DNA of 64,000 bases, from NCBI GenBank assembly GCA_019638775.1, contig JAHBTD010000003.1, forward strand, positions 372,001 to 436,000. The letters run 5' to 3'. The stretch is from Fimbriimonadaceae bacterium (GTDB taxonomy: Bacteria > Armatimonadota > Fimbriimonadia > Fimbriimonadales > Fimbriimonadaceae). The position numbers and the translations under genes were made by a program. The first letter of the stretch is position 1; the number at the start of each line of letters is the position of its first letter. Below are positions 7,672 to 61,345 of this stretch, one piece after another. Below the pieces are notes generated by a model. That model did not search any database and was not told the origin of the DNA. It was given only the letters and a program-made list of their open reading frames with translations.

Positions 7672-9738
7672 CTAGCCGATTAGAATCTTTGTCGTCGGAT
7701 TCGCCATCAAATACTCTTGCGCCGAGAATCTTCCCTCGCTGGTGCGCGGCTGGCGCCGTACGTATTTTCCGTCCGACTTGAGTTCCCATGCCTGACAGTT
7801 GTCCTTCAAGCACACCTCCAAGATTCCATCGCGCAGATGCGCCACAAAGTCAGGATTTTGGACTGGGGTCAGGACCTCTACACGACGGTCCAGGTTACGG
7901 CGCATAAGATCGGCGCTGCCGATGAAGGCTTCTGGAGTCCCGCCGTTCGCAAAATACAGTATTCGGCTGTGTTCTAGAAATCTCCCAACGATTGAGATCA
8001 CCCGGATATTCTCACTCAGCCCCGTCACTCCAGGGCGCAAGCAGCAGATGCCCCGACAGATCAGATCAACCTGCACGCCTGCTTGGCTGGCGTCGTAGAG
8101 GGCGTCGATAATCTCCCCATCGACTACAGCGTTTTGTTTGAAGATGAGTCGCCCGCCCCCGTGCTTGCGGTGCAGGTCTATCTCGCGGTGAATCTTGTTG
8201 AGGATAGCTTGCCGCAAACCAAACGGTGCGACCAGGAGCTTTCGGTAGTTGGTCTGTTTTGAAAAGCCAGTCAAGAAATTAAAAAGCTCAACGACGTCCT
8301 GGGTGATCTCCTCGTCCGACGTGAACAGGCCAAGGTCTGTGTACAGCCTCGCCGTAGAGGGGTTGTAGTTGCCCGTCCCAACGTGGACATAGCTTCGTAT
8401 GCCATCCGGCTCCCGGCGCACGATCAAGCAAAGCTTGGAGTGAGTCTTGAGTTCGGGGAAGCCATAGCTCACGTGGGCACCGCCACGCTCTAAGGCACGC
8501 GCCCATACAAGGTTGTTGCTTTCGTCGAAGCGGGCCTTAAGCTCAACCATCGCTGCGACTTGCTTGCCCTCTTCCGCGGCATCTAGCAGAGCCTCAACGA
8601 TAGGCGATTCGCTGCCGACTCGATAAAGCGTCTGCTTAATCCCGATCACGCTCTTGTCCGTCGAGGCTGCATTAACAAATTGCTGAACTGGACGAAAACT
8701 GTCGTAAGGGTGGTGAAGGAGAATATCGGTTGTCTGAAGAGTCTTGAGCAGCTTTCGTTCGTCATTGATCGCATCTGGCAGATACGGCACATGGTTGGGA
8801 AAGTGCAGCGCCGCCTTATCGATGCCCGTGAACTCCCAAAGAACGTCGAGCCCGATGAGCCCGTCCACGTCAAAGACATCTGACTCTTCCAAGCACAACA
8901 GCTTCATCAGAGTTTTGCGCACCGATTTCGGCATCCCCGTCGCCGCTTCAAGCAGCACAGGATCGCCGAAGCGTCGGCGTCTCAAACTCTCCTCAATGGT
9001 TTCGATCAGGTCTTCAGCCTCAAGTAGCCGAATCTCCACGTCAGCATCGCGGATGACTCGAAACATATGAGCCCCAAGAATCTTCACACCCGGAAAAAGG
9101 AAGTGCAGATTCTCGCGAATAATGTCCTCCATCAGGACGTATTCATGCCGACGCTTGTTTAACCGGATTGCCCTTGGCATCACCGTTGGGATTTTTACGC
9201 GGGCGAGCTTTTGCGCTCCTTCACCATCCTCAAGCAAGACCGCCAAGTTCAGACTTCGGTTCGAGATAAACGGGAGAGACGGGGCCGGGTGAAGAAGCAA
9301 CGGCGTGCAGAGTGGGAAAATGTCCTGCCGAAAGGTTGTGCGTAGGGACTTCTTTTGCCCATCCGTCAGACGGCTGTAGTCGAGGATTTCAATCCCTGCT
9401 TCAATCAACTGCGGTCGGAGCGTCGATTCAAAGAGTTTGCCTGCCTTCGCCCTTAAAGGTCGCGCTTCGCGTGAGATAAGGTCAAGTTGCTCGCTGGGTG
9501 TAAAGCCATCTGGTGTCGCTTCGATGATCCCACTTTCGAACTGCTCGATGAGGCCCGAAACGCGAACCATGTAAAACTCATCGAGGTTCGATTCGAAAAT
9601 GGCGAGAAACTTCAGCCTTTCGAGAAGAGGGTTGCGCTCGTTAGCCGCCTCCTCTAGGACGCGCTCGTTGAACTTTAGCCAACTGTATTCACGGTTGACA
9701 TAGCGATCTGCAAATGGTGATTTCTTCGGTTCTGGCAT
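7672..9738 (-). CDS. ppk1: Polyphosphate kinase 1
   Basis: Transfers the ATP gamma-phosphate reversibly to inorganic polyphosphate; peripheral membrane enzyme. The product is 688 aa. N-domain REYSWLKFNERVLEEA, SNLDEFYMVRVSGL, then the two PLD-like catalytic domains. The autophosphorylated His is His433 in KTHSKLCLIVRR, followed by HVGTGNYNP; the second conserved His is in FLEHSRILYF, and IGSADLMRRNLDRRVE is the usual C-terminal motif. The ATG at 9738 has GAGACGC upstream; a GTG at 9756 would overlap ppx. Paired with ppx, which degrades the same polymer. Confidence 0.97.
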   Translation of the reverse strand: MPEPKKSPFADRYVNREYSWLKFNERVLEEAANERNPLLERLKFLAIFESNLDEFYMVRVSGLIEQFESGIIEATPDGFTPSEQLDLISREARPLRAKAGKLFESTLRPQLIEAGIEILDYSRLTDGQKKSLRTTFRQDIFPLCTPLLLHPAPSLPFISNRSLNLAVLLEDGEGAQKLARVKIPTVMPRAIRLNKRRHEYVLMEDIIRENLHFLFPGVKILGAHMFRVIRDADVEIRLLEAEDLIETIEESLRRRRFGDPVLLEAATGMPKSVRKTLMKLLCLEESDVFDVDGLIGLDVLWEFTGIDKAALHFPNHVPYLPDAINDERKLLKTLQTTDILLHHPYDSFRPVQQFVNAASTDKSVIGIKQTLYRVGSESPIVEALLDAAEEGKQVAAMVELKARFDESNNLVWARALERGGAHVSYGFPELKTHSKLCLIVRREPDGIRSYVHVGTGNYNPSTARLYTDLGLFTSDEEITQDVVELFNFLTGFSKQTNYRKLLVAPFGLRQAILNKIHREIDLHRKHGGGRLIFKQNAVVDGEIIDALYDASQAGVQVDLICRGICCLRPGVTGLSENIRVISIVGRFLEHSRILYFANGGTPEAFIGSADLMRRNLDRRVEVLTPVQNPDFVAHLRDGILEVCLKDNCQAWELKSDGKYVRRQPRTSEGRFSAQEYLMANPTTKILIG

Positions 9739-9743
9739 GCGTC

Positions 9744-10658
9744 TCAAAGAGGACACGGCACGATGTTCCCGTCTTTCAATTCAAGCACGGCCCCCTCTCG
9801 TACTCCGTATTGACTGACCAACATTTCACGATGCTCAAATCGTTCCAATAAGCAACGATACACAATCGAACCGGGTAAAAGGGTCGATGCTCGCTTAGTC
9901 TTAACATTGAAGCGGGCACATATCTCATCAACCGTAAGTCTCGTCGCAGCCCAGGTGAGGTATCGCAGCTCTTCAATACTTAACACTCGATCCCCATCAG
10001 GATGAAGTGCCCGCCAAAGCCCGCGAGCAACGCCCCCACTCACAACTGCCCGCACCGTATCCTGGGGCATTTCACACGCATCCAAAGCAGAATGGATAAT
10101 CTCCTCGATCCGGTGCGCAGTGACCTCGTTTGACGGATAGACAACACTGGCTTGAGCAATCAGCCTGCCCGTGCCTATCGGTAACGAGCATTCGTGCGTG
10201 ATTTGACCATCTACACAACGGGCAATCTGCGCACTCCCCCCTCCAACCTCAATCAGAAGCATCGGTGATGGGCCTAAGCTGTCCAGTGCGACCCCCTTCA
10301 GCGAGAGTTCAGCCTCGCGCTGAGGGCTGATAATGTCAACCTGCAGCCCAATGCGGTCCTTGATTCGATCAAGAAGTTCAACGTGGTTTCGTGCAGACCG
10401 CATCGCCTCCGTAGCGAACGCGTAAACGCCGGTCGCACCGTTGACCTTGGCCCGCTTCTTAAAGGCGTCGAGAGACTGAATGATCCGCTCTGCGGTCGCG
10501 TTAGGAATCTCTCCTGTCCGACTTACAATCTCTCCTAAGGAAAGCCAGTCGCTTTCATTCGTCAGCCGCTTTACTGCGCCGTTATCGACGCTCGCGACGA
10601 GAAGGTGGGTCGTGTTGCTGCCAATGTCGACGGCAGCTAGAACATACGGCATGACCAT
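9744..10658 (-). CDS. ppx: Ppx/GppA-family exopolyphosphatase
   Basis: Hydrolyses terminal phosphate from polyphosphate (or converts pppGpp to ppGpp). ASKHA fold: phosphate-1 loop AAVDIGSNTTHLLVA, then ATEAMRSARN, SPQREAELSLKG and the phosphate-2 loop LLIEVGGGSAQIAR. At 304 aa it is the short form, without the C-terminal HD domain of E. coli Ppx, closer to actinobacterial types. AGGAGA lies upstream of the start; Met3 at 10652 is an alternative start. The stop is 6 nt before the ppk1 start, so ppx-ppk1 form an operon, divergent from a small alarmone hydrolase. Confidence 0.93.
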   Translation of the reverse strand: MVMPYVLAAVDIGSNTTHLLVASVDNGAVKRLTNESDWLSLGEIVSRTGEIPNATAERIIQSLDAFKKRAKVNGATGVYAFATEAMRSARNHVELLDRIKDRIGLQVDIISPQREAELSLKGVALDSLGPSPMLLIEVGGGSAQIARCVDGQITHECSLPIGTGRLIAQASVVYPSNEVTAHRIEEIIHSALDACEMPQDTVRAVVSGGVARGLWRALHPDGDRVLSIEELRYLTWAATRLTVDEICARFNVKTKRASTLLPGSIVYRCLLERFEHREMLVSQYGVREGAVLELKDGNIVPCPL

Positions 10659-10677
10659 CTCATTATGGCGAATCTCC

Positions 10678-10683
10678 TATGCT
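10678..10683 (+). promoter_or_regulatory. -10 element (TATGCT) of the alarmone hydrolase gene
   Basis: TATGCT lies 10 nt before the ATG at 10694. An upstream in-frame ATG at 10679 would sit inside this element, which supports the downstream start and implies a leader of only a few bases. No clear -35 is visible. Confidence 0.4.
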
Positions 10684-10693
10684 AAGATCGGGC

Positions 10694-11284
10694 ATGTCGG
10701 AGAGTGCGTTCCCCCATTTGCATCGGGCCCTGCGATTTGCTCTTGAAGCCCACATGGGGCAAGATCGCGACGGCGAGAACCCTCTGCCGTACATCACTCA
10801 TCCATTTGAGGTCGTGAATACGCTGCGATACATCGGCAACGTCACCAACCAGGAGATTCTATGCGCAGCAGCTCTGCACGACCTTCTGGAGGAGACTTCT
10901 GCCACTCGCGAGGGCATCCTTGCTGCCTTTGGAACGGAGGTCTTGAACCTTGTTCAAGAAGTCACTCGACATGAGCCCTCAACCGCCGACATTCAAGGCT
11001 TGAGCAAGGATGAGATTTGGGTCTTGCGAACTCGCATTTTCATGGATGAGATTCGTAAGATGAGCGAGCGTGCATGGCTTATTAAGCTCGGCGACCGGTA
11101 TTCCAACCTCGGTAACGCCTTTTATACGCGTACACCCGAAAAGCTGGAACGCTATGTGTGGCAAAGCATGATGATTTTGGAGATCATTCCCAAGAGAACA
11201 AACGCTGCGCTTTGGCAGGGCATTCAGGAGATGATTGACCGATTGCCCGTTTCAGAGAAGACACGGCGTCGATTGGCCCTCTAG
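10694..11284 (+). CDS. Small alarmone hydrolase (MESH1/SpoT-type HD domain)
   Basis: An HD-superfamily protein of 196 aa without the synthetase, TGS or ACT domains of RelA/SpoT, matching the size of MESH1-like (p)ppGpp hydrolases. Visible: THPFEVVNTL (first metal His), the HD motif LCAAALHDLLEET (His-Asp, with Glu-Glu in place of the usual Glu-Asp) and the KLGDRYSNLGN motif (usually KxxDRxxN). It would hydrolyse (p)ppGpp to GTP or GDP plus pyrophosphate. It is divergent from ppx-ppk1, linking alarmone and polyphosphate turnover by position. A different nucleotide substrate cannot be excluded. Confidence 0.82.
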   Translation: MSESAFPHLHRALRFALEAHMGQDRDGENPLPYITHPFEVVNTLRYIGNVTNQEILCAAALHDLLEETSATREGILAAFGTEVLNLVQEVTRHEPSTADIQGLSKDEIWVLRTRIFMDEIRKMSERAWLIKLGDRYSNLGNAFYTRTPEKLERYVWQSMMILEIIPKRTNAALWQGIQEMIDRLPVSEKTRRRLAL

Positions 11285-47781: not shown

Positions 47782-48546
47782 TCACATGCCTACGATGTTG
47801 TATCCGTTATCAATATAGATGACCTGTCCAGAGACTCCCTTGCCGAGGTCACTCAAGAGATAGACGGCTGATCCAGCCACCTCATCTTGCCCAAATTCAC
47901 GTTTTAGCGGCGCACGCTCATGAACGTACTCGATCATTCCCAGCAGCCCTTTCACGCCACGAGCAGCCACGGTATTGATCGGCCCTGGGCTCAGAGTGTT
48001 TACGCGAATGCCGCGTACACCCAAATCGACAGCCAGATAGCGAACCGACGCCTCCAGAGCGGCCTTGGCAACGCCCATGACGTTGTAGTTTCCGACCGCA
48101 CGGACCGAGCCGAGGTAGCTCATCGTCAGCACGCTGGCATCGTCATTGAGGATAGGCTCAAGCGTGTGACACAGCTTCACGAGGGAATAAGCAGAGACAT
48201 CAAGCGCCGTCTTGAATCCCTCGCGGGAAGTCTCGATAAAACGTCCGGCAAGGTCTTCACGGTTGGCAAAGGCGGCGGAATGAACGAGGAAGTCAAGCTT
48301 CCCATACTTTGCCGCCGCAGCATCTCGTAGCGCTTCCAGCTGATCGTCAAACGAAAAGTCGATCATGAAGGGGGTCATGCGCTCGAAGCCGGAAGCAAGC
48401 TCTCCGACCTTTTCCATCATGCGTTCGTTTTGCGCGCCGACGCCTACATCGGCGCCGTGATTGTGCGCATGTTCGGCTATCGCCCAGCCGATGGAGTTCT
48501 TGTTCGTGACGTTGAGGACGAGACCCTTCTTACCTGCAAGAAGCAT
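47782..48546 (-). CDS. fabI: Enoyl-ACP reductase (NADH)
   Basis: 254 aa. SDR-fold reductase of fatty acid elongation, target of triclosan. VLNVTNKNSIGWAIAEH (cofactor motif), SYLGSVRAVGNYNVMGVAKA with active-site Tyr and Lys in the FabI-type YxxxxxxK (Tyr-Asn-Val-Met-Gly-Val-Ala-Lys), and LSPGPINTVAARGVKG. Met 48546 is the family start; the 37 codons upstream in the same open frame are the sigma gene terminator region. The TATACT directly upstream means the mRNA is probably leaderless. Confidence 0.95.
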   Translation of the reverse strand: MLLAGKKGLVLNVTNKNSIGWAIAEHAHNHGADVGVGAQNERMMEKVGELASGFERMTPFMIDFSFDDQLEALRDAAAAKYGKLDFLVHSAAFANREDLAGRFIETSREGFKTALDVSAYSLVKLCHTLEPILNDDASVLTMSYLGSVRAVGNYNVMGVAKAALEASVRYLAVDLGVRGIRVNTLSPGPINTVAARGVKGLLGMIEYVHERAPLKREFGQDEVAGSAVYLLSDLGKGVSGQVIYIDNGYNIVGM

Positions 48547-48552
48547 GCCCCG

Positions 48553-48558
48553 AGTATA
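48553..48558 (-). promoter_or_regulatory. -10 element (TATACT) of fabI
   Basis: TATACT ends 6 nt before the ATG at 48546, so the first transcribed base should be at or next to the A of the start codon. It lies just after the terminator of the upstream sigma factor gene. Confidence 0.55.
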
Positions 48559-48563
48559 GCGGA

Positions 48564-48590
48564 AAAGCGGGCGCTTAGGCCGCCCGCTTT
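48564..48590 (-). terminator. Terminator at the end of the sigma-GGDEF gene
   Basis: Perfect 10-bp stem (AAAGCGGGCG with CGCCCGCTTT) and 7-nt loop. The stop codon of the sigma gene falls in the loop and the last codons (KAKRAA) encode the left arm, followed by TTTTCC on the minus strand. Confidence 0.6.
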
Positions 48591-49849
48591 GCTTTCGAAG
48601 ATTCTGGATTAGGCTTCGGACTTGCGCTCTCGATGAGCTGCTCTGCCGACTTTCCATTCTCTGGGAAAGAGGAGTGCAGAACTTCGATGCGCACCTGTCC
48701 GGCTTGTGCCAAACGATCAGACATCCATGCTTCGATCTTTTGCGTCAATCGCTGACGGACGATCAGAGCGTTCGTTCCTGTCGCAGGCAGAATGATTCCG
48801 AACGTTGACGCCCCGCATCGACAGACCAAGTCGAGTCGTCGAATCTGACCCTTCAAGAAGTCAGCAATGTCAGCCAGGAAGTCCGTGACGCTGTCGGGAC
48901 CATAGAAAGCGCGCATCGACTCCAGTCCTGTAACGTGGACCATGGTCAGAGCTACCGCGCCGCCTTCAGACGAAGCGCGATGAACCTCTTCCTGCAATCG
49001 AGAGTTGAAGTACCCTTCGGTATAGACTCCAAGTTCGGGGTCGATCACATCGTAATCCAGTTCCGAAGCCTGTCGTCGCAGAACTCGATCCTTAACTTCC
49101 TCAGCCGACATAATCTTGCGCAGCTTTGCAAGCGACTGTCGCAGGATGTGCGAAACATAGTTGCACGAGATTCCAAGCTTGCTCGCAATCTCAGTCTGGT
49201 TCATGGCATCGAAGTGAAAATGCACGAGAACCTGGCGCTCAAGATCGCGAAGTTGGGCCATCGCACTTTCCAGCAGAACTCTGTCCTCAACGCTCAGCTG
49301 CTCAGGGCAGAAGTCGGAAGCATCAAGCCTCTCGACATCGGCATCGGAGTCGTCGTCAGTCGGCGCTGAATCCAAGGAAGCCACTTTAAGAAGCTCTTGA
49401 GTTTGGAACACCTCGCGGATGGCAGTTTCGCTAACCCCGATCTCTTCCGCAATCTCAGCCTCGCTGGGGTTGCGTCCAAGATTCTGCTGCAAAATTCCCG
49501 CAGCGCGGTTCACCTTGTGCCGCAACTCTTGCAGCCAAGCGGGTTGGCGAATCGTTTGGGAACGATCGCGTAAATAGTGCTTTATTTCTCCGGCGACAAG
49601 ATAGGTGGCGTACGTCGTAAAACGAACACCTGCCGTCGGATCGAACTTAGATAATGCGTTGAGCAGTCCGATAAACCCAACTTGTACAAGGTCCTCTTGG
49701 GGCTCAAGTCCGCTGAAGCGTCGGGCGACGCGCTCAACGAGGCTCCCATAGTGGACAAGAATTAAGTCTTTAAGATCGGCACGAGGATTATCCAAGTACC
49801 GTAAGACCAAACTTTCAGGATCTTCATTTAGACCAAATGCCTGCGACAT
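48575..49849 (-). CDS. Sigma-70 family factor fused to a degenerate GGDEF domain
   Basis: 424 aa. Residues 28-98 are sigma region 2 (LVERVARRFSGLEPQEDLVQ, VRFTTYATYLVAGEIKHYLRD), 105-165 region 3 and 195-247 region 4 (MNQTEIASKLGISCNYVSHI), most like SigB/SigF/FliA-group factors. Residues 266-400 align with a GGDEF domain: DPELGVYTEGYFNSRLQEEV, ALTMVHVTGLESMRAFYG, ADIADFLKGQIRRLDLVCRC, and GASTFGIILPATG in place of GGDEFxxLLPGT. The catalytic GGDEF is GASTF (346-350) so no cyclase activity is expected, but ligand or protein binding is possible. ATG after GGAG. Confidence 0.85.
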   Translation of the reverse strand: MSQAFGLNEDPESLVLRYLDNPRADLKDLILVHYGSLVERVARRFSGLEPQEDLVQVGFIGLLNALSKFDPTAGVRFTTYATYLVAGEIKHYLRDRSQTIRQPAWLQELRHKVNRAAGILQQNLGRNPSEAEIAEEIGVSETAIREVFQTQELLKVASLDSAPTDDDSDADVERLDASDFCPEQLSVEDRVLLESAMAQLRDLERQVLVHFHFDAMNQTEIASKLGISCNYVSHILRQSLAKLRKIMSAEEVKDRVLRRQASELDYDVIDPELGVYTEGYFNSRLQEEVHRASSEGGAVALTMVHVTGLESMRAFYGPDSVTDFLADIADFLKGQIRRLDLVCRCGASTFGIILPATGTNALIVRQRLTQKIEAWMSDRLAQAGQVRIEVLHSSFPENGKSAEQLIESASPKPNPESSKAKRAA

Positions 49850-50054
49850 TCATCACTCCATTGATGTTCTGACCAGTGTCTGCTATCCTTGCTGACACTC
49901 GAAGGCTACATCTGCCTTCTCTACCACTATTTGACTTTTGAGAGTGGCCGCTCCCCAATCTATGATCGGCTTCTCCCTCTTGCTACAATTATCAGTGCAA
50001 TTCTCCGATCTTCGGTTCTTCCCCATCCTAGGGTTTCTCCGGCAATCGGACCGA

Positions 50055-50074
50055 GGCAGCAGCAATCTGCTGCC
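50055..50074 (-). terminator. Possible weak terminator after pilC
   Basis: GGCAGCAG pairs with CTGCTGCC around CAAT, 13 bases past the stop codon of pilC. There is no T run, so this is only a candidate. Confidence 0.3.
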
Positions 50075-50086
50075 CCGAAAATCGTT

Positions 50087-51292
50087 CTACTTCACGCTGT
50101 TGACGAGCTTGAAGATCGGCGTCATAACCGAGATCGCAATAAATCCGACGACGCATCCCATAAAGATGATGAGCATCGGTTCGATCATCGAGGTCAGTCC
50201 CTTTACCGTGGCTTCAACCTCGCTGTCGTAAAAGTCGCCAACCTTGACGAGCATCTCCGACAGGCGTCCTGACTCTTCACCGATGTCGATCATGGTCGTA
50301 ACCATGGTCGGGAAGAGCTTCGACTCGGTGAGCGGTGCGGAGAGCTTCTGCCCTTCGCGGATCGCTTCTCGAGTTGTGTCGATAGCCTCGCTCAAAACGA
50401 CATTGCCCAGGGTTTCGCCGACGATCTCAAGGCTCCGCATGATCGGAACACCCGAGTTAATCAACGTTCCGAAAGTTCGGGAGAATCGGGCGACGCTCAT
50501 CTTGAGCGTCAACTCTCCCACAATCGGAATCCTAAGCTTGATCGTATCAAGCTGATACCGGCCCTTGGGCGTCTTGCCCCAGGCCTTGAGGCCAAAAAAT
50601 GTTCCGACGGCGGCCATGACGATCACATACCAGAACTGGTTCATGAAGTCGCCGATGGCAAACAGGCCAGCGGTGACGGGCGGAAGTTCGACGTCCATAC
50701 CCGTGAAAATCTCTTTAAACTTCGGCAAAACGAAGCTAAACAGAGCAAAGAGCATGACGACGGAGAAGCAAAGGACGAGGACGGGATACATCATCGCCGC
50801 CTTGATCTTGCCTCGGATTTCGTTCTCATACTCCAAGAAGCCTGCCAGACGGTCGAGGATCTCATCCAAAATACCGCCGAGCTCAGCCGCTCGAATCATG
50901 TTCACAAAGAGCTTGTTGAACACGACCGGATGCTTCACCATCGCTTCGTTCAGGGCTGTACCCCCTTTAACGTCCAGACTCATCTGCTCAATGGCTTGCT
51001 TCAAAGTTGGGTCTTTGCACTGCCCAGCCAGAATGTCCAGACATCGAAGAATGGGAATACCGGCGTCGATCATCGTTGCGAACTGTCGCGAAAAGACGAC
51101 GAGGCTCTTTGGCTTCATCTTCTTCTTGCCGTAAGATTTGGCGACCTTCGCCTTCTTCGATGTTTTGATGTCGGTACAGTGCAGCGACATGTCGCGCAGC
51201 TTGGCAAGCACGAGAGACTCGCTCTCTGCCTCCATCACCGACTTTACGGTTCGACCTCCGGCATCAACCGCCGTGTAAGCGTACAATGGCAT
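50087..51292 (-). CDS. pilC: Type IV pilus / type II secretion inner-membrane platform (PilC/GspF)
   Basis: 401 aa. Inner-membrane platform for pilin assembly. N-terminal YAYTAVDAGGRTVKSVMEAES, then FSRQFATMIDAGIPILRCLD, LYENEIRGKIKAAMMYPVLV, and the duplicated second half FSRTFGTLINSGVPIMRSLE and FYDSEVEATVKGLTSMIEPM. Three to four membrane segments at 175-200, 218-240 and 370-395. The start at 51292 has AGGAGAAAGGA. The rest of the pilus operon is not present; one pilin-like protein is at 31721. Confidence 0.95.
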   Translation of the reverse strand: MPLYAYTAVDAGGRTVKSVMEAESESLVLAKLRDMSLHCTDIKTSKKAKVAKSYGKKKMKPKSLVVFSRQFATMIDAGIPILRCLDILAGQCKDPTLKQAIEQMSLDVKGGTALNEAMVKHPVVFNKLFVNMIRAAELGGILDEILDRLAGFLEYENEIRGKIKAAMMYPVLVLCFSVVMLFALFSFVLPKFKEIFTGMDVELPPVTAGLFAIGDFMNQFWYVIVMAAVGTFFGLKAWGKTPKGRYQLDTIKLRIPIVGELTLKMSVARFSRTFGTLINSGVPIMRSLEIVGETLGNVVLSEAIDTTREAIREGQKLSAPLTESKLFPTMVTTMIDIGEESGRLSEMLVKVGDFYDSEVEATVKGLTSMIEPMLIIFMGCVVGFIAISVMTPIFKLVNSVK

Positions 51293-51490
51293 TCCTTTCT
51301 CCTGGGTACAGCAGCCCCGCCGATCATGTTCGGCGTAACCTACATAAGTGATTCTCGGCAAACGGCATTCGGAAGCCCACGCGAAATACCAGGAGTTTTT
51401 CAAAAAACAGCATTCTGGCAAATATACGTTAGCCCCTTTCCTGCCAGAATTTGAACCTGACGTACGATTGGCGGCACGTTCCAAATCCCT

Positions 51491-53569
51491 ATGAAATCGA
51501 GTTTTCCACACGGTCCCACCCTGTCTCTTGAAGAAGGGTTGACGGTGCTGCGTACAGCATTTGGTGAGGAAGCAGACTTTAGGGACGGTCAATGGGAAGC
51601 GATCACCAAGACTCTTCAGCCGACTTCTCGCCTCCTCGTCGTCGAAAGTACGGGTTGGGGGAAGAGCGCGGTCTACTTCTTGGCGACCCTTGCTCTGCGC
51701 CGTCAAGGCTCGATGGCGCTGATCGTCAGCCCACTGCTTGCCCTCATGCGCAACCAGCTTGAGCTTGCCGAAAAAATGGGAGTTCGTGCGGCGGCGATCA
51801 ACTCAGCTAACGTCAAGGACTGGGAAGGGGTCGAAGCCCGAATCTTGACAGGCGAAGTCGATGCTCTTTTCGTCTCTCCCGAGCGTCTCGCCAACGAGCG
51901 CTTTCGCTCCAAAATTCTCGGTTCCATCATTCCAAAAGTCGGGCTGTTGGTGATTGACGAGGCCCATTGTGTGAGCGATTGGGGACACGACTTCCGACCG
52001 GATTACAAGCGCGTCATGCGCATCGTGCCCGACCTACCCTCGTCTGCATCGGTCCTCGCCACAACCGCCACCGCAAACGAGCGTGTCATCCAAGACCTGA
52101 AATCACAATTTGGCGAAACGCTGCAGATTCAACGCGGCAAGTTAATGAGAAAAAGCATCCGGCTCTCTGCGTTCGACCTCCCGTTGCCTGAACAGAGGCT
52201 TGCATGGCTTGCCAAGTATCTGCCTCGCTTCGACGGAACCGGCATCGTCTACACCCTCACCATTCACGATGCCGAAATGGTGTCCGCGTGGCTAAAGCAA
52301 CAGGGCCATGAAGTGGAGGCGTACCACGGAGTGCTTGACCCTGAAGAACGACTGCGTCTGGAAGACGCCTTCTCCCAAAATCAGCTCAAAGCGTTAATCG
52401 CAACCTCAGCGTTGGGAATGGGTTATGACAAGCCGGACGTTGGGTTTGTCGTCCACTACCAAATGCCCGGATCACCCGTGGCATATTATCAGCAGGTCGG
52501 GCGTGCCGGGCGGGGTCTGGAGACGGCCTTTGGTGTGCTGCTCGTGGGCCAGGAGGATGAGGACATCGCCGAGCACTTCCGATCCACATCAAGCCCACCC
52601 AAATCCGCCTTCGAAGCGGTCTTCCGAGCTCTGAGCGCAAGTCCGTTGCCCTTGCACGAAATCGTGGAGCAGGCAAGACTCCGGCAAAGCATCGTCCAGC
52701 AATGCCTCGACATTTTGGATGCAGAGGGGCATATCCGGTCGGGTCCAGACGGGCATACCCTTTTGCCATCTGTGAGCAGCTTCGACCTCGAAAGAAGTGA
52801 GCGAGTACGAGCGCAGCGTGAAGAAGAGATGCAGCAGATGAAGGCCTATGCCCAAACGCAAAAATGCCGGATGGTCTCTCTTGCCCAACTCCTCCACGAC
52901 GAAGCAAATGAAACGTGCGGTCGCTGCGACAACTGCAAGCCGTTGAGTCCGATCAAGCTCGACGAAGATTTCATCGAGGCCGCGCGCCGATTCATGATGG
53001 GCCTCGCCTATGAGATCGAAGCGAAGAAGATGCTTCCCATCGCTCAGGCGAACATGAAATCTCGGCGAATCCCAGCCGAGCAGCAAGTGAGCCCCGGCCT
53101 TGCGTTGAGCAGCTATGGCGATCCCGAGTGGGGACGCATGGTACGCGAAGGGAAGTATCAGGAAGATGCGTTCGGAAAGGAGCTGATCGACGCGTCATTG
53201 GTGGCATTGCGGCGCTACGAGATCAAACCGGATTGGGTGACGTGGGTCCCCAGCTCGCGGCATCCTCATCTCTTAAAGAGGTTTGCTGAGCAGATTGCCG
53301 CCGAGCTTGGCGTGCCTGCGACAGAAGCCGTAACCAAGGTCGAAAGCAACCAGCCCCAAAAGCTCATGCTGAGCACGGCAGCCCAATTCTCCAATGTTTG
53401 GGATGCCTTTGAAGTGTCAGGGGCCAGACCTGGGACGGTGCTACTGGTGGACGACGTCGTCGATTCCGGCTGGACTCTCTCGGCGATTGGCCGCAAGCTC
53501 CGGCTCGCAGGGGCTGACAAGGTGATCCCCTTCGCGCTGGCAACGGCACGTCCACGGAGGCAGCGATGA
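51491..53569 (+). CDS. RecQ-family DNA helicase with C-terminal phosphoribosyltransferase domain
   Basis: 692 aa. RecQ helicase: Walker A STGWGKS (53-59), VIDEAHCVSDWGHDFRPDY (DEAH 156-159), TATA motif III, motif V ATSALGMGYDKPDV, motif VI QQVGRAGRG, and a Cys zinc cluster (Cys459, CGRCDNC 476-482). After residue 560 a second domain with the PRPP loop TVLLVDDVVDSGWTLSAIG (649-667) of the type I PRTase fold, as in ComF and orotate PRTases. The hinge between them is Cys-poor and not clearly RQC or HRDC. ATGA overlap with dprA. Role uncertain: repair, competence or anti-phage defence are all possible. Confidence 0.9.
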   Translation: MKSSFPHGPTLSLEEGLTVLRTAFGEEADFRDGQWEAITKTLQPTSRLLVVESTGWGKSAVYFLATLALRRQGSMALIVSPLLALMRNQLELAEKMGVRAAAINSANVKDWEGVEARILTGEVDALFVSPERLANERFRSKILGSIIPKVGLLVIDEAHCVSDWGHDFRPDYKRVMRIVPDLPSSASVLATTATANERVIQDLKSQFGETLQIQRGKLMRKSIRLSAFDLPLPEQRLAWLAKYLPRFDGTGIVYTLTIHDAEMVSAWLKQQGHEVEAYHGVLDPEERLRLEDAFSQNQLKALIATSALGMGYDKPDVGFVVHYQMPGSPVAYYQQVGRAGRGLETAFGVLLVGQEDEDIAEHFRSTSSPPKSAFEAVFRALSASPLPLHEIVEQARLRQSIVQQCLDILDAEGHIRSGPDGHTLLPSVSSFDLERSERVRAQREEEMQQMKAYAQTQKCRMVSLAQLLHDEANETCGRCDNCKPLSPIKLDEDFIEAARRFMMGLAYEIEAKKMLPIAQANMKSRRIPAEQQVSPGLALSSYGDPEWGRMVREGKYQEDAFGKELIDASLVALRRYEIKPDWVTWVPSSRHPHLLKRFAEQIAAELGVPATEAVTKVESNQPQKLMLSTAAQFSNVWDAFEVSGARPGTVLLVDDVVDSGWTLSAIGRKLRLAGADKVIPFALATARPRRQR

Positions 53570-56406: not shown

Positions 56407-57186
56407 GTGGCACTGTCAGCCGAACAACTAAAACGAGCGTGGATCGACTTCAAAGTTTACAAGAGACTTGATGCACGCAGCGAACTGATCAATCATTATG
56501 CGTACCTGGTCAAGATCACATCTGGACGTCTGGTAACAAGCTTGCCCGGAGGACTGGATCGTGAAGACCTGATCGGCTCCGGAGTTATAGGATTGATCAA
56601 GAGTGTCGATCAGTTTGACCCCACCCGAGACGTAAAGTTTGAAACATATGCGATCGCACTCATTCGTGGCGCGATTCTCGAAATGCTTCGAGATGAAGAC
56701 TGGGTGCCGCGTTCCATCCGCGAAAAGCTCAAAGCGCTCGACCGTACGGTAATGCGATTGGAGACAACGCTGGGAAGACCCGCCACCGAGAAAGAGATTT
56801 CCGACGAGATGGGCATCCCCGCTCAAGACGTATCCGAACTCCTCGTCCGAATGGGCCGCACCAACGTTTACAGCCTCGACGACATTTTGACTACTGGCGA
56901 CGGCGACGATCATATCCACTTCGTCGAGCTGATCGTCGATGAAGACTCCAATCCAGCCGGAGAGATCGAAGGCCGCGAGGTCCGCCGAGTACTCGCTTCC
57001 GGCGTTGACAAGCTTCCCGATCGCGAGCGGCTCGTCGTTGCCCTCTACTACTTCGAAGGTTTGACATTCAAAGAGATCGGCAAAGTGCTGGGCGTGAGCG
57101 AGTCTCGCGTTTATCAGCTCCATACACAAGCCATGAACCGGCTTCGAAACCACATGCATTCGGAGGGGACGGTTCCGGCAAGGTAG
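56407..57186 (+). CDS. fliA: FliA/WhiG-type sigma factor
   Basis: 259 aa. Region 2 INHYAYLVKITSGRLVTSLP, EDLIGSGVIGLIKSVDQFDP, VKFETYAIALIRGAILEML, region 3 VPRSIREKLKALDRTVMRLE, region 4 DKLPDRERLVVALYYFEGLT and IGKVLGVSESRVYQLHTQAM. The DWVPRS motif is characteristic of FliA/SigD/WhiG. Directs flagellar, chemotaxis or developmental promoters. GTG start after AGAGGTGGAG. Followed by a short gene after 10 nt. Confidence 0.93.
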   Translation: MALSAEQLKRAWIDFKVYKRLDARSELINHYAYLVKITSGRLVTSLPGGLDREDLIGSGVIGLIKSVDQFDPTRDVKFETYAIALIRGAILEMLRDEDWVPRSIREKLKALDRTVMRLETTLGRPATEKEISDEMGIPAQDVSELLVRMGRTNVYSLDDILTTGDGDDHIHFVELIVDEDSNPAGEIEGREVRRVLASGVDKLPDRERLVVALYYFEGLTFKEIGKVLGVSESRVYQLHTQAMNRLRNHMHSEGTVPAR

Positions 57187-58641: not shown

Positions 58642-58775
58642 GGGTTTTGCATGATGAGCGACTCTTCGAACACCGACAATCTCCTATAGAGACACGGTAT
58701 GCCGTCAGCAATCGAAATCGATAGCATCGGCAGATGCGTGTCCCTAAAATCTCTGAGGAGGGAAGGACGCATTTT

Positions 58776-58820
58776 GATGCCGATTGATCATCAGTGTGTT
58801 CAGAACGGGAATGGGGCTTG
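58776..58820 (+). other. Possible 14-codon leader ORF before the diguanylate cyclase
   Basis: MPIDHQCVQNGNGA with a strong GGAGGGAAGG upstream. It overlaps the start of the cyclase gene in another frame. May be a leader peptide or coincidence. Confidence 0.3.
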
Positions 58821-61345
58821 AGGAGGCAAAGCCATCCCAGGGTGAACGGGCTATGGCCGAACGAATAAACGAGCTGGAAGGCCAGGTTGCAAGCGCTAAA
58901 TCGGCGCAGAAGATGCACTGGTATGCCGCACGCAGGTTCGAGGAACTGTTTCATGCAGTTCCGGCAGCGTGCTACACGCATGATGCCTCCGGCAAGATCT
59001 ACGAGTTCAATCGTGCCGCCGAACACTTGTGGGGTATCGAAGCCTTCGAGATTTTTGAGAAATCGGTTTATGGCAACCTCGTAGGGCCCAAGGCAACCGC
59101 GAGCTATATCCAGGTGGTCGAGAGAGTTCTCCGAGGAGAATCCGTCACCGAATTTGAGTGGGAGTTCGATGCCAGAGACGGCACCACCCACTACCTCATC
59201 TCCAATTTCTTCCCCGCGCGTAATTTGCAAAACGAGATCGTGTCCGTCAGTTGCGCGACTCTCGACGTTACCCAGATCAAAGTCGGCGAAATCGAGCGAT
59301 ATCGCACGTCAGAATTGGTAAGACAGTTTGTCCAACACTCCCCAGCGCCAATCGCAATGTTCGATACTGACATGCGATTCCTGGTCGCCTCAGATCGCTG
59401 GAAATCCGAGTTTATCGGACACGCGATGGAGCTCGAAGGGCAGGAGCTTAAGGACGCAAGCCCGAACCTTGCCGAGCGTTGGCAAACCCAGATCGTAAGA
59501 GCGCTCCACGGAGTCGCAAGCTCAAAAGAGGACGATCCGTTTGAGGATGTCGTTACCGGGGGAACCTCCTACTACCGTTGGGATATTCGCCCTTGGAGAG
59601 ACCAAAGTGGAGAGGTCGGCGGCTGCATTATTCTCTGCGAAGATGTCACAGATCGCTGGCAGGCAAACCAAACAATCCTCGAAGGCAAGGCCAAACTTGC
59701 CGAGGCGCAAAGAGTTGCCAAACTTGGCTATTGGAGCTATGACGTCCAGTCGGATCGAGGCGAGTGGGCCGAAGAGCTCTATGCCATCCACGGTCTTGCA
59801 AAGCCCGATTGCATTCCACTTGACCAAGAGAAGTTTTTCAGTCTGATTCTTCCAGAGGATGTCGAGCGCGCGAAAACGGTCGTCGAGAAAGCAAAGAAAA
59901 GCGAAACAGAGTTCACCCTGGAATATCGCATCCATCGCAGCGACGGCGAAACGCGATATGTCCTTTGCCGCGGTAAAAGCAGGAAAACCCAATCGGGAAT
60001 GTTGCTCGAAGGCACGGCCCAAGACATCACCGACCTTAAAGAGAACGAGCTTCGACTGATAGAGGCCCAAAGCCGGATCGCATCGTTCATCGCGACGAGC
60101 CCAACCATTCTGTACTGCGTCTCGGCGGACGGCACATTCGCCTGCACCTACGTGAGTGAGAACGTTGAGCGGGTTTTGGGATATGCCCCAGAGCAGTTCT
60201 GCGGTGATCTCAAGAGTTGGACAGATCGCATCCACCCCAACGATAAAGCGGCCTTTGACACTCAGTGGCAGGGAGTCGCGGAAGGCAAGCCCTTCCGATG
60301 CGAGTACCGCTCTGAACACGCCGACGGTTCGTATCGTTGGATCGTCGACGAGATCAATCTGGTCAGAGATTCATCTGGCGACCCCTTCGAGTACGTCGGT
60401 TCAAGAACCGACATCACCGAACAAAAGCAAGCCGAGGAGAATCTGCGACTGCTCTCCAGCGTTGCCGAAACATCTTCGAGCGGCATCTTCGTCTTTGACG
60501 CCAGCTTCCGACTCAAGTACGTAAACACCGCCTTTGTCAAGCTCGTGTCTTCCGATGCCGAAGACCTGGTGGGCAAATCTGCAGAGGAAATCCTAACGCA
60601 GTTCGGCTCCGAGGAGCATGCGATTCGTGTCCTACGGCAAGTCTTTAGAAACCCCAAACCCACCGAGCTTGAACTGAGCGTGAATGACCGTTACGGCGAC
60701 AAGTATTGGTTCGAACTCGTGCTCAACCCGGTCTTAGACCCCGAAGGAAAGCTAACACACTTTATCGCCGTTGCACACAACATCACCGACCGAAAGCTCG
60801 TTGAGCACGAATTGCAAACCGCAAACAAACGGCTTGAGGCGTTGGCATCCACAGACGGCCTGACGGGTGTTCAAAACAACCGCGCATTCAGAGGTTTTCT
60901 GGAACTTGAGTTGCAAGCGGCACATGCTGCAAAAAGACCGCTGTCGATTATCCTTCTCGACGTTGACAAGTTCAAAAGCTTCAACGACAGCTTTGGGCAT
61001 CTTGCTGGTGATGAGGTTCTCAAGGGAGTTGCCGACACTCTCCTCGATGCGTGCCGCGCGGGCGATTTCGTCGCTCGGTACGGTGGCGAAGAGTTCGTGG
61101 TTGTCCTGCCAGGAGCGGACGAAGAAAGGGCAATCGCAGCCGCAGAAAGAATTCGCACAGCTATCGAACGGGTGGTTTGGCCTCATCGACAGGTCACCGC
61201 CAGCTTTGGCGTCGCGACCGTCGTCGGTCGATGCAAGGATATCGAAAAGATCATCAGCGAAGCCGACAAGGCTCTCTATGCGAGTAAGGACGCCGGACGC
61301 AACTGCACGACGCATTTCCGACACTTGGCAAAGAAAGCGGCGTAG
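58811..61345 (+). CDS. Diguanylate cyclase with five PAS domains
   Basis: 844 aa. Cytosolic. Five PAS/PAC units (about 45-160, 170-290, 295-405, 410-530, 540-655), with PAC endings such as CATLDVTQI, CEDVTDRW, AQDITDLK, RTDITEQKQAEE and AHNITDRKL. Then a GGDEF domain: DGLTGVQNNRAFRGFLELEL, ILLDVDKFKSFNDSFGHLAG, ARYGGEEFVVVLPGA, with an RxxD inhibitory site (RAGD) 5 residues before GGEEF. Active c-di-GMP synthase expected, with multi-input sensing. Start uncertain: TTG 58784, ATG 58811 or ATG 58853. Confidence 0.93.
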   Translation: MGLEEAKPSQGERAMAERINELEGQVASAKSAQKMHWYAARRFEELFHAVPAACYTHDASGKIYEFNRAAEHLWGIEAFEIFEKSVYGNLVGPKATASYIQVVERVLRGESVTEFEWEFDARDGTTHYLISNFFPARNLQNEIVSVSCATLDVTQIKVGEIERYRTSELVRQFVQHSPAPIAMFDTDMRFLVASDRWKSEFIGHAMELEGQELKDASPNLAERWQTQIVRALHGVASSKEDDPFEDVVTGGTSYYRWDIRPWRDQSGEVGGCIILCEDVTDRWQANQTILEGKAKLAEAQRVAKLGYWSYDVQSDRGEWAEELYAIHGLAKPDCIPLDQEKFFSLILPEDVERAKTVVEKAKKSETEFTLEYRIHRSDGETRYVLCRGKSRKTQSGMLLEGTAQDITDLKENELRLIEAQSRIASFIATSPTILYCVSADGTFACTYVSENVERVLGYAPEQFCGDLKSWTDRIHPNDKAAFDTQWQGVAEGKPFRCEYRSEHADGSYRWIVDEINLVRDSSGDPFEYVGSRTDITEQKQAEENLRLLSSVAETSSSGIFVFDASFRLKYVNTAFVKLVSSDAEDLVGKSAEEILTQFGSEEHAIRVLRQVFRNPKPTELELSVNDRYGDKYWFELVLNPVLDPEGKLTHFIAVAHNITDRKLVEHELQTANKRLEALASTDGLTGVQNNRAFRGFLELELQAAHAAKRPLSIILLDVDKFKSFNDSFGHLAGDEVLKGVADTLLDACRAGDFVARYGGEEFVVVLPGADEERAIAAAERIRTAIERVVWPHRQVTASFGVATVVGRCKDIEKIISEADKALYASKDAGRNCTTHFRHLAKKAA

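Follow-up and report, generated by a model that had tools for sequence, protein, structure and literature searches.

A group-3 sigma factor fused to a degenerate GGDEF domain with conserved I-site residues: a candidate c-di-GMP-responsive regulator of the Armatimonadota

Signals carried by c-di-GMP usually reach transcription through separate transcription factors or riboswitches, or in one known case through an anti-sigma factor. RsiG–WhiG has been termed the sole known sigma/anti-sigma complex targeted by c-di-GMP (PMC8325347). For the GGDEF fold itself, PleD is the structural reference: three residues of one GGDEF domain, together with R313 of a neighbouring one, bind intercalated (c-di-GMP)2 at the I-site (PMC7288161, a review). 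Sigma factors under c-di-GMP control (WhiG–RsiG) and degenerate GGDEF receptors (PopA, PelD) each have a precedent; the literature searched yielded no example of the two joined in a single polypeptide, and no description of a sigma–GGDEF fusion.

The window analysed here, a stretch of 64 000 nucleotides from a Fimbriimonadaceae bacterium, encodes a SigB/FliA-like (group-3) sigma factor joined to a degenerate GGDEF-fold domain (table 1). The initial annotation had described a SigB/FliA-type factor with regions 2–4, followed by a GGDEF-like part with a GASTF signature. Pfam matches confirmed both halves and the gene coordinates proved exact, to which we add the strand, minus. All three sigma regions score above the Pfam cut-offs and region 1.1 is absent, the arrangement of a group-3 sigma-70 factor. 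The best sigma profile is TIGR02980 (SigB/SigF/SigG; E 1.7e-53), although its 181.7 bits lie below the curated cut-off of 234.35; the score for TIGR02479 (FliA/WhiG), 120.9 bits, is likewise below its curated cut-off of 189.6. Foldseek matched the N-terminal part to SigB and other sigma factors. No RsbW-like partner gene was seen adjoining the fusion gene, and no small conserved partner gene was seen beside it among ORFs of at least 150 aa. A second, stand-alone FliA-like sigma factor is encoded approximately 7 kb away (56407–57186, plus strand).

Table 1. Features of the fusion gene and its surroundings, in window positions.
Feature	Position	Strand	Details
Sigma–GGDEF fusion CDS	48575..49849	-	424 aa, ATG start, stop codon included
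Sigma-70 region 2, residues 33-97	49559..49753	-	Pfam PF04542, E 1.1e-15
Sigma-70 region 3, residues 108-173	49331..49528	-	Pfam PF04539, E 1.5e-11
Sigma-70 region 4, residues 196-245	49115..49264	-	Pfam PF04545, E 1.1e-11
Degenerate GGDEF domain, residues 270-410	48620..49042	-	Pfam PF00990, AF2, PleD superposition
R291, equivalent to PleD R313 (I-site residue supplied by the partner GGDEF)	48977..48979	-	77/78 homologues
RRLD, RxxD primary I-site motif; R337 and D340 equivalent to PleD R359 and D362	48830..48841	-	
GASTF, degenerate A-site signature, residues 346-350	48800..48814	-	
R367, equivalent to PleD R390, third primary I-site residue	48749..48751	-	74/78 homologues
C-terminal Ala-Ala, candidate ClpXP C-degron	48578..48583	-	fusion C-terminus reads -KRAA
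Predicted leader hairpin CAUCA-AUGGAG-UGAUG, loop with GGA and Shine-Dalgarno	49851..49866	-	
Predicted leader hairpin, AAGGAUA loop, CsrA-like site	49876..49898	-	
Predicted leader hairpin CCC-UAGGAU-GGG, CsrA-like site	50021..50035	-	
pilC (T2SSF family), putative operon partner, start at MPLYAYTAVDAG	50087..51292	-	PF00482, E 1.7e-63
Promoter-like element: -35 GCGTGGGCT, 15 nt, -10 CCGAGAAT	51351..51382	-	66 nt before pilC

The assignment of the C-terminal part rests on several lines of evidence. The PF00990 match spans residues 274–409 (E 5.9e-14; 52.6 bits against a cut-off of 23.8), and single-sequence phmmer searches of the PDB retrieved diguanylate cyclases (best E 8e-7). Structure prediction, suggested at the outset as a check, returned a GGDEF fold: in an AF2 model built from 78 homologues the domain has pLDDT values mostly of 85–95, and the structure it matches best is that of PleD bound to c-di-GMP (PDB 2wb4; Z-score 19.1, rmsd 2.6 Å over 150 residues, 23% identity). 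The catalytic motif, on the other hand, is degenerate in every homologue that could be aligned, with GG[DE]EF in none of 131, and the equivalents of the PleD A-site residues D327, N335, D344, G369, E370 and E371 vary among the 78. A GASTF signature and variable metal and GTP positions are not those of an active diguanylate cyclase, and catalytic activity of the domain was rejected on the loss of the A-site in all homologues. The best explanation is that the domain descends from a diguanylate cyclase, having lost GTP and metal binding and kept the I-site. The crystallization of PleD with c-di-GMP plus (p)ppGpp (PDB 9g85 and 9g86) leaves room for a domain that senses another guanine nucleotide, GTP or ppGpp, through the I-site or what is left of the A-site, but the A-site positions that would contact guanine, metal and phosphate are unconserved and we consider this very improbable.

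The I-site had been overlooked in the initial annotation. When the 78 aligned homologues were mapped onto PleD, R337 and D340 were each found in all 78 and, with R291 and R367, are among the nine most conserved of approximately 140 domain positions. The resulting four-residue signature, RRDR, is found in approximately 35 GTDB families, and RxxD is retained in nearly all aligned rows across the phylum. Retention of R291, R337, D340 and R367 is the pattern of a PopA/PelD-type receptor and suggests c-di-GMP as the likely ligand, rather than a generic nucleotide. As a control, we inspected the eight other GGDEF proteins of the genome: GG[DE]EF is intact in all eight and RxxD is present in only three, so the pattern of the fusion is not general among the GGDEF domains of this organism. 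Against a c-di-GMP receptor, it may be argued that a persistent RxxD reflects structural or interaction constraints. The domain would then be a ligand-free module for dimerization or for docking a partner (an anti-sigma factor or a diguanylate cyclase, for instance), and its arginines and aspartate would be retained as an interaction surface. Conservation is just as high (77–78 of 78) at E287, E288 and R284, which do not belong to the I-site of PleD; these three may form a family-specific interface, and they indicate that another surface is constrained too. A docking role does not readily account for the retention of exactly the four known I-site residues next to a randomized A-site, and we regard it as improbable.

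We then consider how widely the fusion is distributed. Full-length homologues (38–67% identity) are present in 58 of 61 relatives, and the fusion occurs in approximately 188 of 291 Armatimonadota genomes, a count of related and hence not independent genomes that uses a best E < 1e-48 and leaves out family f17, whose matches are apparently unfused. The homologue survey called for initially thus shows the same fusion recurring phylum-wide, and this spread indicates that the fusion is old and vertically kept rather than a local accident. An assembly or frameshift artefact was considered and rejected, given full-length homologues in those relatives and across the phylum. Named homologue records come from Fimbriimonadaceae, Chthonomonas and other Armatimonadetes, and the best 80 matches of a genome scan are nearly all labelled Armatimonadota. 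One contig titled ‘Methanoregulaceae archaeon’ (L173; JADZEW010000016.1) contains pilC as well as a copy of the fusion with 64% identity, and is probably misbinned or mislabelled. In a plasmid collection, none of 331 sigma-factor matches covered 80% of the fusion. In one complete genome (L166; CP021423.1) the frame stops at approximately residue 332, inside the GGDEF domain and just before RxxD, either through sequencing error or through natural loss of the receptor. Such a broken frame, like the lost catalytic motif, might be expected if the protein were simply an alternative sigma factor with a decaying domain of no function attached to it; that reading is contradicted by a full-length domain with invariant residues in approximately 188 genomes from dozens of families, and we give it almost no credence.

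The host genome encodes, besides its eight other GGDEF proteins, 10 HD-GYP matches and 5 PilZ matches; no EAL phosphodiesterases were found in the genome, and c-di-GMP is probably degraded by the HD-GYP proteins. The window itself encodes a multi-PAS diguanylate cyclase (58784–61345, plus strand) with intact GGEEF and RxxD motifs, which ends in -KKAA. With canonical GGDEF presence defined at E <= 1e-28, 29 of the 291 genomes lack one (for nine of these 29, identity was inferred by elimination). The fusion occurs in just one of the 29, a genome that is 64% complete (G117), compared with approximately 187 of the 262 genomes with a canonical GGDEF (Fisher p 3e-13, a value that ignores shared ancestry). 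Fusion and cyclases are jointly absent in several separate genera (in families f1, f5, f10, f12, f13, f32 and f35), and there are many cyclase-bearing genomes without the fusion, in part of genus g19 and in families f25 and f40–f45. Near-absence from genomes without a canonical GGDEF counts further against the ligand-free docking module. The initial annotation had proposed that a GGDEF-derived module might tie a second messenger to promoter choice. This is partly supported: the conservation side of the case is strong, resting on an I-site kept and an A-site lost phylum-wide, a matching fold and co-occurrence with diguanylate cyclases. Neither of the two outcomes named at the outset as refuting the idea, a C-terminal part without the GGDEF fold or a fusion lacking homologues, was encountered.

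We therefore favour, at a probability of about two in three, a group-3 sigma factor that carries its own c-di-GMP receptor and is gated by c-di-GMP, with ligand binding inferred from the residues described above. Intercalated (c-di-GMP)2 would be bound through R337, D340 and R367 in one chain and through R291 in another, so that two sigma factors would be paired by the ligand, by analogy with the cross-linking of GGDEF domains in PleD. Pairing would alter the ability of the fusion to join RNA polymerase. Most likely, high c-di-GMP would switch the sigma factor off with no need for a separate anti-sigma protein. The off-direction is favoured only as a guess, at roughly 60:40, since in the analogous WhiG–RsiG system c-di-GMP serves to hold the sigma factor off.

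The genomic neighbourhood offers a candidate target. On the minus strand the gene order in the window is pilC, the sigma–GGDEF gene and an enoyl-ACP reductase gene, and among the 71 loci with sufficient sequence there are 55 in which pilC, in the same orientation, directly precedes the fusion gene. Pilus genes are abundant, and motility absent, in the genome of Fimbriimonas ginsengisoli (PMC4072686). Upstream of pilC, by approximately 46–82 nt, the sequence CCGACAAT makes up a -10 element; a -35 box stands 15 nt ahead of it. This FliA/WhiG-like -10 resembles that of WhiG, GCCGATAA (PMC8325347). The -10 pattern was present in 33 of 54 loci, compared with 11 on the antisense strand and 4.3 in shuffles. 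In 152 pilC-linked loci the interval separating pilC from the sigma gene contained no promoter-like match, which is consistent with co-transcription of the two genes. The statistics for promoter, leader and degron are all post hoc, with a held-out test, a weak one, for the promoter only: a matrix trained upstream of pilC and then applied to 42 loci without pilC placed the element before the sigma gene in nine on the sense strand, against five antisense and 0.45 in shuffles (control 44/732, training sites included). Among these loci the element is clearest in family f19 and in L079 and L205. This hints at autoregulation of the sigma–GGDEF gene, and is suggestive rather than decisive. The pilC element could also serve a different FliA-like sigma factor, for example the stand-alone one mentioned above. 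Elsewhere, a matrix match scoring 19.6 lies 27 nt before a gene whose product has a PilB/GspE ATPase-like N-terminus (L201:10109, plus strand), and a similar site in the window, at 58672 (score 16.6), lies approximately 110 nt upstream of the multi-PAS cyclase gene. For the c-di-GMP-gated sigma factor, the regulon would probably include further type IV pilus genes besides the pilC operon.

A further layer of control is predicted in the mRNA leader between pilC and the fusion gene. This leader, in which the three hairpins of table 1 are predicted, folds more stably than any of 200 shuffles (z -3.9), and Rfam yielded no family at gathering level in 48400–51600. Hairpins with an AGGA loop occur at 5.85 per kb in pilC–sigma intergenic DNA (window 49850–50086, minus strand, and loci L132–L211) versus 0.21 per kb elsewhere in the intergenic DNA of the same loci, an enrichment of approximately 28-fold, and none is seen on the opposite strand. 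Their stems vary by species while the AGGA loop is constant. Within 150-nt leaders, a GGA hairpin is present in 54 of 76 cases compared with 88 of 659 controls, and one lies over the Shine-Dalgarno sequence in 21 of 76 leaders compared with 11 of 659; these hairpins are clear mainly in pilC-linked lineages. For these counts, and for the C-terminal ends considered below, the controls are neighbouring genes from the window and from 80 loci, and gene starts were taken from mechanical ORF calls. Leaders repressed by CsrA carry GGA loops, one of which covers the ribosome-binding site. The layout predicted here, several GGA-loop hairpins with one over the Shine-Dalgarno sequence in a csrA-bearing host, corresponds to this arrangement; csrA was found in the host genome and in all 28 fusion genomes tested. 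In one genome (G005, contig C1), csrA (8176–8331, plus strand) lies approximately 1.3 kb from the fusion gene (9658–10896, minus strand). The AGGA-loop hairpins are likely to be CsrA sites in this little-studied phylum, and CsrA would probably repress translation at those that cover the ribosome-binding site.

The C-terminus of the fusion is also distinctive. An -AA end was found in 71 of 79 homologues versus 12 of 670 neighbouring genes at the same loci; five more end in -VA, bringing the totals to 76 of 79 versus 18 of 670. The tail that follows the GGDEF domain is short and cannot be aligned among homologues. Among the degrons of ClpXP, a C-terminal Ala-Ala is a classical one (PMC8119881); LAA, NAA, PAA and EAA are entries in its C-motif-1 list (PMC9775585). 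With its xAA-COOH end on an unalignable tail, the fusion is a candidate C-motif-1 substrate; clpX is present in the genome, and we infer that the -AA end probably makes the fusion a ClpXP substrate in the Fimbriimonadia and Chthonomonadia lineages. These observations give some weight to a PopA/CtrA-like alternative, in which the state of the I-site gates the -AA degron for ClpXP, so that c-di-GMP would control how much sigma factor there is rather than its affinity for RNA polymerase. Indeed, PopA couples c-di-GMP binding at its I-site to ClpXP degradation of CtrA (PMC12564702). However, the degron may be constitutive, and deep families without -AA keep the I-site, so there the domain needs another role. 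The absence of the -AA end from deeper families also suggests a later addition and places proteolysis outside the ancestral mechanism. We consider this alternative possible, though unlikely as the principal mode of action. For a sigma factor gated through its own receptor, regulated stability via -AA would be the main alternative, or else an added output where -AA is present.

A broader picture can be sketched, in which a one-component sigma factor binds c-di-GMP through a captured GGDEF I-site, is regulated from one locus in its translation by CsrA, in its activity by c-di-GMP and in its stability by ClpXP, controls type IV pili phylum-wide and arose independently of WhiG–RsiG; taken as a whole this is tentative, and we lean slightly against it. 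Should c-di-GMP binding be shown, the fusion would represent a new class of sigma factor, and a sigma factor with a built-in receptor would be the shortest path from messenger to promoter choice. It would also mean that c-di-GMP had come to control a FliA-like sigma factor linked to type IV pili a second time, independently, which would suggest that such wiring is favoured repeatedly. The fusion is conserved throughout a phylum that has hardly been studied experimentally, and the proposal makes specific predictions: four residues, one ligand and one regulon.

The fusion can be compared with several known systems. It shares regions 2, 3 and 4, in order, with SigB/SigF/SigG and FliA/WhiG, but falls below the subfamily cut-offs and carries an extra C-terminal receptor-like domain. 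With PleD it shares the GGDEF fold and all four I-site residues; PleD, in contrast, is an active enzyme with a Rec input and uses its I-site for product inhibition. PelD and FimX also employ a non-catalytic GGDEF fold as a sensor, and PelD binds c-di-GMP at the I-site, but they act on polysaccharide secretion or pilus proteins rather than on RNA polymerase. PopA of Caulobacter has a degenerate A-site and a retained RxxD through which it binds c-di-GMP (PMC12564702), and is likewise tied to an -AA ClpXP-degron substrate, CtrA (PMC12564702, PMC8119881). It is, however, a Rec-Rec-GGDEF adaptor acting in trans, whereas the fusion unites receptor, regulator and candidate degron in one polypeptide. 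A further relative in logic is WhiG–RsiG of the Actinobacteria (Streptomyces and Rubrobacter), where a FliA-type sigma factor with a FliA/WhiG-like -10 is under c-di-GMP control and, in Rubrobacter, governs type IV pili (PMC8325347), as the link of the fusion to pilC would suggest here. The difference lies in the receptor: WhiG is controlled by a separate coiled-coil anti-sigma factor that binds c-di-GMP through E(X)3S(X)2R(X)3Q(X)3D motifs, whereas the fusion carries a built-in GGDEF I-site.
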